This document shows, piece by piece, positions 20,899 through 29,340 of a DNA stretch of 48,710 bases. Every line of letters starts with the position of its first letter. The stretch's first letter is position 1. The stretch covers positions 1-48,710 of the forward strand of contig JAFYUI010000012.1 of assembly GCA_017549565.1 (NCBI GenBank), written 5' to 3'. Below the pieces are notes generated by a model. The model saw only the letters and a program-made list of their open reading frames with translations. It was not told where the DNA came from and did not search any database. The DNA is from Clostridia bacterium. Lineage in GTDB: Bacteria; Bacillota; Clostridia; Oscillospirales; Acutalibacteraceae. A program made the position numbers and the translations under genes.

Positions 20899-20930
20899 AA
20901 AACCAAGATAGAATTAACTATCTTGGTTTT
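20899..20930. terminator. Bidirectional terminator between the spoIIP operon and the RAYT gene
   Basis: Perfect 13-bp stem AAAACCAAGATAG / CTATCTTGGTTTT with a six-base loop AATTAA and T-runs on both sides. The loop contains the stop codon of the convergent RAYT gene. Confidence 0.85.
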
Positions 20931-21429
20931 TCTTTAATAGATATTTTTTGGGATTATTTTCAATATATTCAAAAATTTCGTTATAATCTTCTTGATTGCG
21001 TATTACGTGGTCATAATATCTCGATTGCCAAATATTTTCTCCATATTCTTTATTACAAAATCTTTTAAAAGTACTTACAAAATTTGATATAGTTGAATTT
21101 TTATTTTCAGTTTTAATATTAGAATGTGTAGGGACAGGCGTCCTCGACTGTCCGTTTAATATTGAAACTAAAAGATGAATATGGTCGGGCATAATAATAT
21201 ATTTATCAACTGAAATATTATCATAAAAAATATTTAATTTTTTAATATACCTGTCGGCAATTTCACCATATGGTAAAAATACAGTTTTCGGACAGTCGGG
21301 GACGCCTGTCCCTACAATTTTGCTTAAAATAGGTTTTCTATCTTTGATACATATTGTAATAAAATATGCGCCATTTTGACTGTAATTATAATTTTCTAAT
21401 CTATTATTTTTTCTTTTTGGTAATTTCAT
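20914..21429 (-). CDS. REP-associated tyrosine transposase (RAYT, TnpA_REP / IS200-like Y1 family)
   Basis: A 171-residue single-strand DNA transposase-like protein. N-terminal RAYT signature LPKRKNNRLENYNYSQNGAYFIT; HUH motif HIH at residues 83-85 in MPDHIHLLVS; likely nucleophile Y149 in EDYNEIFEYIENNP. I chose the ATG giving MKLPKRK; an upstream start adds 15 hydrophobic residues unlike the family. Two surface loops, residues 38-47 and 92-101, are encoded by the two arms of a 28-bp REP-like inverted repeat. No IS ends or target duplications are visible, in keeping with a domesticated RAYT. Confidence 0.88.
   Translation of the reverse strand: MKLPKRKNNRLENYNYSQNGAYFITICIKDRKPILSKIVGTGVPDCPKTVFLPYGEIADRYIKKLNIFYDNISVDKYIIMPDHIHLLVSILNGQSRTPVPTHSNIKTENKNSTISNFVSTFKRFCNKEYGENIWQSRYYDHVIRNQEDYNEIFEYIENNPKKYLLKKNQDS
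21127..21316. repeat. REP-like inverted repeat inside the RAYT gene
   Basis: Arms 21127-21154 and 21289-21316 are 28 bp each, 27 of 28 matching in inverted orientation, 134 bases apart, and GC-rich (core GGGACAGGCGTCC). They are much richer in GC than the surrounding gene, and both lie in frame within its coding sequence. No further copy was noticed in this window. They resemble the dispersed REP units that RAYT proteins recognise. Confidence 0.8.
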
Positions 21430-21500
21430 TTTTATCACCAATAAAATTTTATCATAAAAGTAATAAAATAACAATTATTTAATTTTTGCATATTGCAAAC

Positions 21501-25183: not shown

Positions 25184-26032
25184 ATGATAATTTTAGACAA
25201 CGGCACGCTACGGGTTGAAATTGATAAAATGGGTGCGGAAATCCGCAGTGTTTTAAAGGACGGCCAAAATCGTATGTGGTCGGGTGACCCGTCATATTGG
25301 TCGGGTGTTTCGCCTGTTTTATTTCCAATTTGCAGTGGCATGCCAAATGATGAATATATCTATAACGGCAAAACCTATCAAATAGCAAAGCACGGCTTTG
25401 CTAAAAAAATGCCCTTTGAGGTTGAGGCCACCGCCGACGACACCGCAACCTTTATGTTAAAATCTAATGAAGAAACACTTAAAAATTTTCCTTGGAAATT
25501 TGAACTGCGTGTTAAATACACCCTTATTGGTGACAAAATAAAGGTTGAATATTTTGTTTTAAACAAGTCGGATGATACAATGTATTATTCTATCGGTGCA
25601 CACGAAGGTTATAACTGCCCCGAAGGCATTGAAAATTATGACATTGTCTTTGAAAAGGAAGAAGCTTTAAACACCTGTCTTTTAGACGGTGCGGTTTTAT
25701 CGGGTGAAACACAGCCGATTTTAACAAGCGGAAAAGTACTTTCTTTAAAAGAAGAATATTTTGAGGTTGATGCTTTGATTTTTAAAAATATAAAATCAAA
25801 AAAAGCAACACTTCTTAACCGCGTGACAGGGCAGGAAACTGTTGTTTCGTTCCCTGAATTTCCGTATCTTCTTTTGTGGCACCCCGTTGGCGCACCTTTT
25901 ATGTGTATCGAACCCTGGTGTGGCATTTGCTCTACCAAAGGCGACAGCATTGATATAACCGAAAAAGAAGGAATAATATCACTTGAAAGCCAAAACGAAA
26001 AAGTGCATACACATATAGTAGAGTTTAGATAA
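25184..26032 (+). CDS. Aldose 1-epimerase family protein (LacX-like mutarotase)
   Basis: A 282-residue protein of the galactose mutarotase fold, which interconverts alpha and beta sugar anomers. Seen: LRVEIDKMGAEIRSVLKDG, the LFPICS block, KHGFAKKM with the likely catalytic His, YSIGAHEGYNCP and LLWHPVGAPFMCIEPWCGI. It is closest in layout to the LacX/YihR subgroup, which lacks parts of classical GalM, so the sugar is uncertain. Single gene with its own promoter and terminator. Confidence 0.85.
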   Translation: MIILDNGTLRVEIDKMGAEIRSVLKDGQNRMWSGDPSYWSGVSPVLFPICSGMPNDEYIYNGKTYQIAKHGFAKKMPFEVEATADDTATFMLKSNEETLKNFPWKFELRVKYTLIGDKIKVEYFVLNKSDDTMYYSIGAHEGYNCPEGIENYDIVFEKEEALNTCLLDGAVLSGETQPILTSGKVLSLKEEYFEVDALIFKNIKSKKATLLNRVTGQETVVSFPEFPYLLLWHPVGAPFMCIEPWCGICSTKGDSIDITEKEGIISLESQNEKVHTHIVEFR

Positions 26033-26070
26033 AAAACAGACCTTGAGAAAAATCTCAAGGTCTGTTTTTT
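26031..26070. terminator. Terminator of the aldose epimerase gene
   Basis: Perfect 17-bp stem (core ACAGACCTTGAG / CTCAAGGTCTGT) with a six-base loop and T-run, starting just before the stop codon ends. It works in either direction and borders the hairpin array. Confidence 0.9.
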
Positions 26071-26141
26071 GTTATAAGTGTTTCACACGTTATGAATTCG
26101 GCAAGCCGAATGTTATGAACAAATTGCCTTAAAGCAATTTG
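26071..26141. repeat. Modular hairpin array, left side of the four-helix-bundle gene
   Basis: Units of a 7-mer plus a palindrome: GTTATAA + GTGTTTCACAC; GTTATGA + ATTCGGCAAGCCGAAT; GTTATGA + a stem CAAATTGC / GCAATTTG. Each palindrome differs while the 7-mer stays nearly constant. On the other side of the gene the 7-mer is inverted (TCATAAC). Confidence 0.8.
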
Positions 26142-26144
26142 CGT

Positions 26145-26498
26145 TTACAATTTTTTCTTCATTGTAGTAATAGAAGAAACTATCATTCGTCTTAATTCGA
26201 TATATTGTTTTTTAAAACAATCAAATTCTTCGACGGTCATACCGTTTGTTTCAAATAACAATTCTAACCAATAAGCGGTTTCATTACATTCTTTTAAGGC
26301 AATTTCTAATTTAGAAATGAAATCTTTAGTGCTTTGCGCATATTGTGCTTCGTAAACATTAGCACCGATTGAGGTACCCGCACGCAACAATTGGTTTGTT
26401 AGTGCAAATTCAGTATGATTACAATTTAATTTTCGGCAAAGGAAAATAATATTTTTGGCAAATTCTTTGGATTTTGCTCTTATTATGCTTTCAGACAT
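26145..26498 (-). CDS. Four-helix bundle protein (23S rRNA intervening-sequence protein family)
   Basis: A 117-residue, all-helical protein of the S23/IVP family: IIRAKSKEFAKNIIFLCRKL, then NQLLRAGTSIGANVYEAQYAQSTKDFISKLEIALKECNETAYWLELL. Members are encoded in intervening sequences of 23S rRNA, and relatives (Avd) are partners in diversity-generating retroelements. I chose the ATG after AAAGGAGA. It stands alone in an intergenic region, framed on both sides by hairpin modules with inverted 7-mers, so the whole (26071-26589) looks like one unit. Function unknown. Confidence 0.9.
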   Translation of the reverse strand: MSESIIRAKSKEFAKNIIFLCRKLNCNHTEFALTNQLLRAGTSIGANVYEAQYAQSTKDFISKLEIALKECNETAYWLELLFETNGMTVEEFDCFKKQYIELRRMIVSSITTMKKKL

Positions 26499-26517
26499 AT
26501 TTTCTCCTTTTAAAAAC

Positions 26518-26589
26518 TTTGCATAAAGCAAATCATAACTACGCAAAGCGTATCATAACTCATAACTTGCCCGTAAGGGCAATCATAAC
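26518..26589. repeat. Modular hairpin array, right side of the four-helix-bundle gene
   Basis: TTTGCATAAAGCAAA, then TCATAAC, palindrome TACGCAAAGCGTA, TCATAAC, TCATAAC, palindrome TTGCCCGTAAGGGCAA, TCATAAC. The four TCATAAC copies start at 26533, 26553, 26560 and 26583. They are the exact complement of GTTATGA on the left side. The palindromes fit between the 7-mers with at most one spare base. Confidence 0.85.
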
Positions 26590-26591
26590 TT

Positions 26592-26629
26592 AAAGATATA
26601 GATTAAGTGTCGCTTAATCTATATCTTTT
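26592..26629 (-). terminator. Terminator of secA
   Basis: AGATATAGATTAAG / CTTAATCTATATCT stem with a five-base loop and T-run. The last secA codons and its stop form one arm. Confidence 0.8.
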
Positions 26630-29340
26630 CCGCAGCAGCGTTTATATTTTTTGCCGCTTCCACATGGGCAAAGGGCGTTTTTGCCAACTGCACCCTTACC
26701 TTTAACGGTGTTGGGCTTGTTGTCTGCGCTTGATTCCTCGGCAACCTTTTCACGCTTAACCTCATCATCGCGGCGAACACGAACAGTCATAACAAGCTTT
26801 GCGGTTTGTTCGCGAATAGCGGTGGTCATTGCATCAAACATATCATAGCTGTCGTTGCGGTATTCAACAACAGGGTCGTGCTGACCATAACCACGAAGAC
26901 CTATACCTTGGCGTAATTGGTCCATAGCATCAATGTGGTCCATCCAGTTGGTATCAACCGACCTTAGCAGCATTACGCGTTCAATTTCACGCATCATATC
27001 ATTGCCAAGCTCATTTTCACGCTGTGCATAAATCTTTTCAGCACGGTCTTTAAGTAAATCGGCAATGTCACCTTTATCAAGCTTTGAAAGCTCGTTAGCG
27101 GTGTAGTTAAAGTCGTCAGGTGCAGTAAGCCAACCCATAAAGTATTCACGAAGACCCTTTAAGTCCCAATTATCAGCAATAGGGTCTGAAAGGTAAATAC
27201 TGCAATAAGAATCAACAGTGTCGCAAATCATCTTAAACACAGTGTCCTTAATGTCCTCGCCGTCGAGCACCTTGTTACGCTGGGTGTAAATAAGCTCACG
27301 CTGTTTGTTCATTACATCGTCATATTGAAGGGTGTTTTTACGGATGGCAAAGTTAATGCCTTCCTTCTTCTTTTGGGCACCCTCAATAGTTTTTGAAAGC
27401 ATACCGCTTTCAAGCGGCATATCCTCTTCCACACGCATTGTGTCCATAAGCATTGAAATTCTTTCGCCGCCGAAAAGTCGCATAAGGTCATCTTCAAGAG
27501 ATACAAAGAACTGTGTTTCACCGTTGTCACCCTGTCGACCCGCACGACCGCGCAGCTGGTTGTCAATACGGCGTGAATCGTGGCGCTCGGTACCGATAAT
27601 ACATAAACCGCCTGCCTGTCGTACTGCCTCGGCTTCGGGGGCAATTTCAGCTTTAAATTTGTTGTAATATTCAGTGTATTTTGCACGGGCAGCCAAAATG
27701 TCGGGGTCTTCGGTTTCGGCAAAGCCGGTGGCTTCAACAATCATTTCTTCGCTTAAACCATCGTGGCGAAGTGCAGATTTTGCTAAATATTCGGCATTAC
27801 CGCCAAGCATAATGTCGGTACCACGGCCCGCCATATTGGTGGCAATGGTAACGGCACCAAGTTTACCCGCTTGGGCAATAATTTCGGCTTCTTTTTCGTG
27901 GTGTTTTGCGTTTAAAACGTTGTGCTTAATACCACGCTTTTTAAGAAGTGCCGACAAAAGTTCAGACTTTTCAATGGTAATTGTACCCACAAGAACGGGC
28001 TGCCCCTTTTGGTGACATTCAATAATCTTGTCAATAACCGCCATAAACTTTGCTTTTTCGGTTTTGTAAACCACATCGTTTTGGTCAATACGGGCAATGG
28101 GCTTGTTGGTGGGAATTTCAATAACATCCAATTTATAAATTTCTTGGAATTCGGCTTCCTCGGTCATGGCAGTACCTGTCATACCCGAAAGCTTGTTATA
28201 AAGGCGGAAGAAGTTTTGAAAGGTAATAGTTGCAAGTGTTTTTGATTCTTTAGCAATCTTTACGCCTTCTTTAGCTTCAATTGCTTGGTGCAAGCCCTCG
28301 TTATAACGGCGGCCATACATTAAACGGCCGGTAAATTCGTCAACAATTATAACCTCGCCGTCTTTTACAACATAATCGACATCACGCTTCATAATACCGT
28401 GTGCACGAATTGCTTGGTTTATATGGTGGGCAATAGCGATGTTTTCGCTGTCGTTAAGGTTTTCGATGTTGAAATACTGTTCAACACGCTTAACACCGTC
28501 GGGGGTTAAAACGGCAGTCCTTGCCTTTTCATCAACTACATAGTCGCCCTCAATACCCATCTGCTCGTCCGACACCTTGTCGTCCATTTCTTTAATCTTA
28601 AACATTTTAAGTGAACGGGCAAGGCGGTTTGCGGCTTCATACAAATCGGTTGATTTATCACTTTGTCCCGAAATGATAAGGGGAGTTCTTGCTTCGTCAA
28701 CTAAAATCGAGTCAACCTCGTCGACAATAGCAAAGTTGTGTTCGCGCTGTACCTTTTGTTCTTTATAAATAACCATATTGTCACGCAAATAGTCAAAACC
28801 AAGCTCGTTATTGGTGCAATAGGTAATGTCGGCGTTATATGCTTCTTGCTTTTGCTCTTTGGTCATACCGTGGGTAACAAGACCAACAGTAAGCCCCATA
28901 AATTTATAAAGCTTGCCCATCCATTCGCTGTCACGCTTTGCAAGGTAATCGTTAACCGTTACAATGTGCACACCCTTACCCGAAAGAGCGTTAAGATATG
29001 CAGGAAGTGTTGCAACCAAGGTTTTACCTTCACCTGTTTTCATTTCGGCAATACGGCCTTGGTGCAAAATAATACCGCCGATAATCTGCACAGGGAAGTG
29101 GCGCATACCAAGTACACGGTCGCCTGCTTCTCGGCAAGCGGCAAATGCCTCGGGTAAAATGTCATCAAGAGTTTCACCCAATGTAAGTCTTTCTTTAAAT
29201 TCGTTGGTTTTTGCGCGCAGCTGTTCATCGGTTAATGACTTATATTCTTCTTCCAAAGCCAAAACCCTTGTTTGCAGCGGCATAATTCGTTTAAGTTCTT
29301 TTTGGCTGTAATTGCCAAAAAGTGCTGAAATCAAGCTCAT
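26614..29340 (-). CDS. secA: Preprotein translocase ATPase SecA
   Basis: A 908-residue motor that drives proteins through SecYEG. Walker A in [18 protein letters not shown] near residue 100; [33 protein letters not shown]; the arginine-rich helicase motif [11 protein letters not shown]; a helical scaffold; and the C-terminal zinc tail [13 protein letters not shown], which binds SecB-like partners or lipid. Full length. It runs toward oriC, against the expected fork direction, which is unusual for an essential gene. Confidence 0.98.

Follow-up and report, generated by a model that had tools for sequence, protein, structure and literature searches.

A heptamer array in two inverted halves covaries with the IVP protein encoded beside it: a candidate two-part repeat system in Clostridia

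Introduction

What kind of element separates galM from secA in the genome of a Clostridia bacterium (Acutalibacteraceae)? Within the window, the 48,710-nucleotide stretch of contig JAFYUI010000012.1 analysed here, this intergenic insert consists of a small gene framed by hairpins that are spaced by a constant 7-mer. An earlier note on this DNA proposed a mobile or RNA-level element with constant 7-mers and free stems. Heptamer repeats and the 23S-IVP protein family are both without a function so far. Small cyanobacterial repeats were reportedly the subject of work by Elhai in 2008. The candidates named for heptamer repeats in the accessible text of two papers are S1, Csp, CsrA or G-quadruplexes (PMC4679880, PMC4692102). 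That text names an IVP protein in neither paper, and a literature search conducted mostly without subscription papers found nothing linking heptamer repeats with the IVP family.

Results

An IVP gene between two inverted half-arrays

The insert spans positions 26071–26589, with galM (25184–26032, + strand) on its left and secA (26614–29340, − strand) on its right (Table 1). Read along the gene strand, its 5' half runs from the secA-end palindrome through GTTATGA, a hairpin, two adjacent copies of GTTATGA, a hairpin, GTTATGA and a further hairpin to the ribosome-binding site. The IVP gene (26498 to 26145) is followed by a hairpin, TCATAAC, a hairpin, TCATAAC, a weak hairpin, TTATAAC and the terminator-like palindrome of galM. 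The exact positions bear out what the earlier note had read, GTTATGA on the left and its exact complement TCATAAC on the right, the outermost left copy being the variant GTTATAA. They likewise bear out its count of at least five differing palindromes between the 7-mers: five were found, with stem arms ATTCGG/CCGAAT, CAAATTGC/GCAATTTG, TTTGC/GCAAA, TACGC/GCGTA and TTGCCC/GGGCAA, plus a weak one (GTG/CAC). The border palindrome on the secA side and the terminator-like palindrome behind galM are additions to that description.

Table 1. Positions of the features in and around the insert, in window coordinates.
Feature	Position	Strand	Remark
Terminator-like palindrome, perfect 18-bp	26031..26070		behind galM; left border of insert
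Variant heptamer GTTATAA	26071..26077	+	
Heptamer GTTATGA	26089..26095	+	
Palindrome ATTCGGcaagCCGAAT	26096..26111		exact gap fill
Heptamer GTTATGA	26112..26118	+	
Palindrome CAAATTGCcttaaaGCAATTTG	26120..26141		adjoins stop codon of IVP gene
IVP-family protein gene, 117 aa	26145..26498	-	PF05635, TIGR02436; Ser4 and Glu65 are the covarying positions
Palindrome TTTGCataaaGCAAA	26518..26532		
Heptamer GTTATGA on gene strand (TCATAAC on +)	26533..26539	-	
Palindrome TACGCaaaGCGTA	26540..26552		exact gap fill
Two tandem heptamers GTTATGAGTTATGA on gene strand (TCATAAC at 26553 and 26560 on +)	26553..26566	-	
Palindrome TTGCCCgtaaGGGCAA	26567..26582		exact gap fill
Heptamer GTTATGA on gene strand (TCATAAC on +)	26583..26589	-	
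Border palindrome	26592..26628		26592–26607 is an inverted copy of the last codons of secA (26613–26628)

The heptamer occurs in 13 exact copies in the window (both strands), against 6.0 ± 2.8 in dinucleotide shuffles, of which 1 in 100 reached this count; six of the 13 copies lie within 501 bases. From this count, and from the comparison of hairpin-border counts with controls given below, we rejected a chance origin of the layout. Folded as single-stranded DNA, the two flanks of the insert with their border palindromes gave z = -7.6 and -8.0, equalled by none of 200 shuffles. A cmscan search of the window found two tRNAs only and no rRNA gene. At Rfam gathering thresholds the arrays of the window and of 10 array loci had no match, so a known Rfam RNA family was rejected as their identity, in keeping with the earlier note, which knew of no matching family.

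The gene, with its ATG at 26498, encodes a protein that matches PF05635 (E 5.7e-27, 94.5 bits, cut-off 33.8) and TIGR02436 (108.3 bits, cut-off 24), which places it in the 23S intervening-sequence/Avd family, as the earlier note had it. The predicted structure is a bundle of four helices (residues 2–26, 31–51, 57–83 and 89–116; mean pLDDT 95.3). Helix 1 carries residue 4 at its start, and helix 3 carries residue 65 within its first third. In an up-down bundle, we infer, the two residues are situated toward the same end. A family member, Xcc0516, is described as a homopentamer in the accessible text of PMC4990558, and entries 2rld and 2gsc contain five chains each.

The same design with other heptamers

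The genome itself holds four IVP genes, three of them each beside a different heptamer: besides the gene of the insert, two share the hairpin-array design with the words ACATCGT and ATATCAT. The fourth (G000:C29:91508, L016) has an in-frame TAG, short repeats upstream and no hairpin array. A GTTATGA array lacking a gene lies at G000:C37:17856.

IVP genes are present in 57 of 70 genomes of the genus, with 0 to 7 each among the matches listed, and 96 of them were examined in 94 loci. A 7-mer occurring at least three times at hairpin borders was found upstream of 47 of 90 IVP genes, versus 3 of 211 control ORFs of the same loci (all three resembling such arrays by their words) and none of 900 dinucleotide shuffles. 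Among the 43 other genes, 35 have a tandem of period 7 or 14 in a flank, which leaves 8 of the 90 with neither form. The heptamer copies mostly form two blocks, the first reverse and the second forward (RRRRFFFF and similar), with words such as ATTTCAT, ACATCAC and ACTTCAC. We also tested the reading of the earlier note that one fixed 7-mer serves all copies; the word differs from locus to locus, and this reading was rejected.

Some loci show further peculiarities. At L236, three successive ACTTCAC array copies stand at a single IVP locus. AATTCAT arrays at L103, L191, L195 and L206 lie at the 3' end of a gene that by eye resembles an RNA methyltransferase, its last codons forming one arm of the border hairpin. 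Upstream of the IVP genes of L097, L129, L103, L105, L014 and L013, an arm of the first hairpin appears, also by eye, for a third time where the second half-array begins; two folds could compete there, a possible switch.

Two residues covary with two bases of the heptamer

In a protein tree of 95 rows, 19 rows lacked a motif label and were left out; the remaining 76 fall into 18 motif classes, which require 19 changes, while 200 label shuffles require at least 53. In this labelling AATTCGG and AATGCG count as one class, and the labels of L023, L078 and L081 were changed by eye to AATGCG (a tie in the case of L078). Judged by this tree, the heptamer follows the protein and not the genome.

Alignment columns were scanned in the 53 of 95 rows whose words have the form nn[A/T]TCA[T/C]; the hairpin-free TATTCAT class contributes ten of these rows. 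The mixed array of L096 was left out, and the words TCATAAC, ACATCGT, ATTTAGC, AATGCG, AATGCA and TTTTTAG, like the unlabelled rows, are not of this form. The best column for base 7 corresponds to Ser4 of the window protein: Ser goes with C (14 rows), and Asn (37) or Asp (2) with T, in 53 of 53 rows. For base 3 it corresponds to Glu65, Glu going with A, and Gln and others with T, again in 53 of 53. The next best column reached 51 of 53 for either base.

Applied unchanged to held-out genes, the two rules were correct in 41/41 and 42/42 cases. The held-out set comprised 110 loci with 106 IVP genes, 102 after removal of identical ones, and 43 of the 102 were used for scoring (L159 was dropped as a tie); residue 4 is missing from two of these and position 65 is Asn in one, hence the two totals. 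The best identity of the held-out proteins to the first set had a median of 85% (up to 97%), with 11 of 43 under 80%. For eight genes the nearest training protein (75–90% identical) has a word with another base at position 3 or 7; the residues were right in 8/8, so nearness alone does not suffice as an explanation. A 96-row tree built without both columns requires 12 changes of base 7 and three of base 3. Well-supported forks are few in the trees: base 7 has 2–3 starred independent pairs and base 3 has one, each of them concordant, which is too few for a sign test.

The window protein (Ser4, Glu65), whose word TCATAAC stands outside the 53, fits both rules (base 3 A, base 7 C) if the word is read in the same frame. 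Other residues also occur, Lys at position 4 with ATATCGC in L204 and Asn at position 65 in other classes. We conclude from these alignments that residue and base covary at two positions.

Period-7 repeats at IVP genes beyond the genus

Among the 102 held-out genes, hairpin arrays accompany 52 and period-7 or period-14 tandems alone another 35, which leaves 15 with neither. Several IVP genes of Bacteroidota and Verrucomicrobiota are flanked by plain tandem heptamers, in many cases inverted from one side to the other, such as AATTGAG x4 and CTCAATT x4 in L198 or AATTCAA and TTGAATT in L166. The repeats of L185 (Chryseobacterium populi) are GTTATGA, the word of the window itself. In 35 loci with repeats on both sides, scored by exact unit, the unit recurs only inverted in 16, in both orientations in 4, only directly in 3 and in neither orientation in 12.

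Plasmid-borne IVP genes (17 of 26 records found, 12 of the 17 cyanobacterial) have a period-7 repeat within 300 nt in 15 of 17 cases, versus 3 of 190 genus control ORFs. Mean flank periodicity peaks at lags 7, 14 and 21 in five hairpin-free sets (6.1, 5.4 and 4.4 for the plasmids), against scores of 0.2, 0.2 and 0.5 in genus controls (n = 217). The held-out loci gave controls that are just as flat (0.2, 0.1 and 0.5; n = 206), with period 7 in 9 of 206. Control ORFs of Bacteroidota and Verrucomicrobiota (n = 40) score 0.8, 0.4 and 0.6, and period 7 was found in 6 of these 40 versus 6 of 14 IVP genes; heptamers are therefore spread in these genomes and denser at IVP genes. A distant IVP subfamily, in which L353, L354, L365 and L367 repeat genes already in other sets, has weaker periodicity.

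Some of the plasmid genes have neighbours of interest: one lies between hsdS and hsdR (L328), those of L330, L331 and L342 beside cas1/cas2, and those of L335 and L339–L341 among helicase, methylase or HEPN genes. By this gene order, heptamer elements may enter defence operons.

Free stems between fixed heptamers: DNA or RNA

The 352 gaps between neighbouring heptamers comprise 186 hairpins, 12 tandem junctions and 154 of neither kind; 47 of the latter are array centres, where the two halves meet and no hairpin ever occurs. Palindrome and gap coincide exactly in 154 of the 186 hairpin gaps. The stems have 137 distinct cores among 156 palindromic gaps and the heptamer is the constant part, which lends support to the protein-plus-repeat element with constant 7-mers and free stems that the earlier note had envisaged. 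Because hairpin lengths vary, the heptamers have no fixed spacing on double-stranded DNA. With the hairpins folded out, most heptamers become contiguous, so the hairpin-array and plain tandem forms look equivalent.

Related arrays have exchanged stems on both arms and kept their heptamers, and the loops of some related copies differ by reverse complement. Allowing one kind of mismatch rescued imperfect palindromes in 11 (G.T), 8 (A.C), 17 (A.G) and 2 (C.T) cases. The reverse-complemented loops and the about equal rarity of G.T and A.C point weakly to DNA rather than RNA. These data bear on a reading of the insert as an RNA-level element like the intervening sequences of 23S rRNA, in which the arrays would pair in the transcript, RNase III would free the gene loop and the protein would bind RNA. 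The predicted RNA fold of the whole insert does pair the upstream GUUAUGA with the downstream UCAUAAC, with the hairpins as side arms (z = -6.6, equalled by none of 100 shuffles), and several Bacteroidota and plasmid loci have repeats close to start codons or between same-strand neighbour genes. Excision of such a sequence by RNase III is reported for Coxiella in the accessible text of PMC4990558. The rescued mismatches, however, have no clear RNA-strand bias, and a TATAAT-like box lies between array and IVP gene in 56 of 76 Clostridia cases (39.9 in shuffles), so many arrays may lie outside the IVP mRNA. We therefore consider an RNA-level element doubtful. Of the earlier note's pair of options, mobile or RNA-level, the first agrees with presence and absence at one site (below), and for the second no clear strand-specific wobble was found.

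Spread, gene-less arrays and neighbouring sites

Thirty secA loci were fetched, from 68 genomes with a match, and galM adjoins secA in the own genome and four relatives. Empty galM–secA sites, for which the earlier note had suggested a search, were found once: in G044 (L052), galM, the palindrome with its core CTTGAGAaaaaTCTCAAG retained and the end of secA follow one another with nothing between. The site holds a RAYT-like gene in L049 and L051 and a different small repeat in L050; in the closest relative, L048, galM is absent from the fetched 1.5 kb and other sequence is found there. Since the contents differ among relatives, the site is by this comparison a hot spot, at which the insert was gained in the own genome or lost elsewhere.

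Arrays also occur alone. Twenty regions were picked from array hits, so their counts are not genome-wide rates: L320 has an intact IVP gene, L310 a weak remnant (25% identity, E 0.003), and the other 18, of about 1–4 kb each, have no IVP gene, one farther off being possible. Genome G016 has at least several ATTTCAT arrays, and its one IVP gene (among the matches listed) belongs to the ATATCAC class. Against its own proposal the earlier note had set wide occurrence of hairpin arrays without such a gene and without sign of joint gain or loss; the first part was found, yet the heptamer is tied to the protein by residue–base covariation, a bond that counts of joint occurrence would miss. The gene-less ATTTCAT arrays of L306, L317, L318, L321 and L323 are followed by a common stretch like ATATGTAGGGGTTCAAACACATAGG, which may be the element's far end; a comparable stretch is found downstream of the L016 IVP gene.

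Of 88 IVP-linked arrays, 44 have a tRNA gene no more than 190 nt upstream; in the array-picked regions a tRNA gene lies within 190 nt of 6 of 25 arrays. A terminator-like palindrome directly precedes 26 of 92 IVP-linked arrays, versus 3 of 280 random positions. No target duplication could be defined at the insertion sites; several have instead a border palindrome with one arm in host coding DNA (secA in the window), as though by a copying of the flanking sequence back onto itself.

These distributions also weigh on a non-selfish reading, in which the arrays would serve IVP and other genes as operators or translational control sites under a host-type regulator. The arrays end near the IVP gene (last heptamer and start are a median of 51.5 nt apart), the start codon of L185 overlaps a partial last heptamer, and translational regulation was proposed by MacGregor for TAACTGA heptamers (PMC4679880, accessible text). 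Such a regulator is hard to reconcile with arrays at many places without a gene, with the empty galM–secA site and with IVP copy numbers of 0–7 per genus genome (among the matches listed) and 3–17 in 14 other genomes chosen for having the gene; we judge it unlikely.

A RAYT-like Y1 transposase gene lies 5 kb from the insert (20914–21474, − strand; Pfam Y1_Tnp, NCBIfam REP_Tyr_transpos below cut-off), and the genes at the galM–secA site of L049 and L051 are 76–77% identical to it. The palindromes could be of the REP/REPIN type, in which case a RAYT (Y1) transposase would move them and the IVP gene would be a bystander. This is very unlikely, as single residues of the IVP protein covary with the heptamer and no heptamer array flanks the window's RAYT-like gene on either side, for which reason this gene was rejected as the partner of the arrays. 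Ordinary heptamer microsatellites, arisen by replication slippage and near IVP genes by chance, are hardly credible: heptamers are over-represented in many bacteria (PMC4692102, accessible text) and 6/40 non-Bacillota control ORFs have period 7, but this reading is largely contradicted by the few period-7 controls elsewhere (3/190 in the genus, 9/206 at held-out loci), the inverted halves and the residue–base agreement in held-out data.

Discussion

We read the insert, with a probability of roughly 0.7, as one copy of a two-part selfish repeat system made of an IVP protein and an array of its own recognition heptamer in inverted halves. The covariation suggests that each IVP protein binds its own heptamer directly, the array standing in two inverted halves around or beside the gene. 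As the palindromes are mostly exact gap fills of no fixed length, the bound form is probably single-stranded or extruded nucleic acid. TRAP-type ring proteins wind RNA triplet repeats. The heptamers perhaps wind in a like manner round a five-subunit ring, one heptamer per subunit; this is a guess that shares with TRAP the idea of one repeat per ring subunit, but the fold is unrelated and binding here is putative. New sites, many of them behind tRNA genes and terminators, would probably be reached via host replication or repair, copying of the hairpins by these being our guess for the mode of movement.

In its widest form, which we hold to be an even call, this proposal says that bacterial heptamer repeats are largely footprints of IVP/Avd-like proteins, each protein reading one heptamer by a residue code, two positions of which are described above, and palindromes leaving this reading undisturbed because they fold out of the single strand. 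An amino-acid-to-base code would link heptamer repeats with the 23S-IVP family and open both to experiment together. Such a link points to sequence-specific binders of a new kind, whose specificity can be rewritten, and to a novel type of mobile repeat; it is also relevant to what the related protein Avd does in diversity-generating retroelements.

Among known systems, REPIN–RAYT pairs come closest in working. According to the accessible text of PMC3116915, these too are dispersed, inverted palindromic repeats, extragenic and in many cases without a gene, each repeat class lies beside its own class of protein gene, and co-evolution has been proposed. The partner here, however, is a four-helix-bundle IVP protein (PF05635) and not a Y1 transposase, and the heptamer is constant and the palindromes free, the reverse of REPs. 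With the intervening sequences of 23S rRNA the insert shares the protein family and an ORF bordered by complementary sequences (PMC4990558, accessible text), but it is intergenic, has no rRNA gene and is bordered by heptamer arrays with side hairpins. Diversity-generating retroelements offer two likenesses in the accessible texts, Avd resembling PF05635 (PMC10053308) and the target including a DNA hairpin/cruciform with a free stem sequence (PMC3240598). This identity was rejected because the reverse transcriptase family PF00078 had no match in the own, 96%-complete genome (3 of 14 control genomes match). The system thus resembles the REPIN–RAYT pair in its working and fails its defining features, and it is neither an intervening sequence nor a diversity-generating retroelement.

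The empty site (L052) and the copies at many places, some gene-less, are shared with MITEs and other mobile elements. The unit length is that of two sets of published repeats, as given in the accessible texts: TAACTGA of Beggiatoaceae, cyanobacteria and Bacteroidetes (PMC4679880), a rotation of which, AACTGAT, lies at the IVP gene of L156, and GGGAATC / GGGGA(T/C)T of Xanthomonas and Nostoc (PMC4692102), with AATCCCC, the complement of GGGGATT, at the IVP gene of L336. These long-unexplained heptamer repeats may have found their partner protein.
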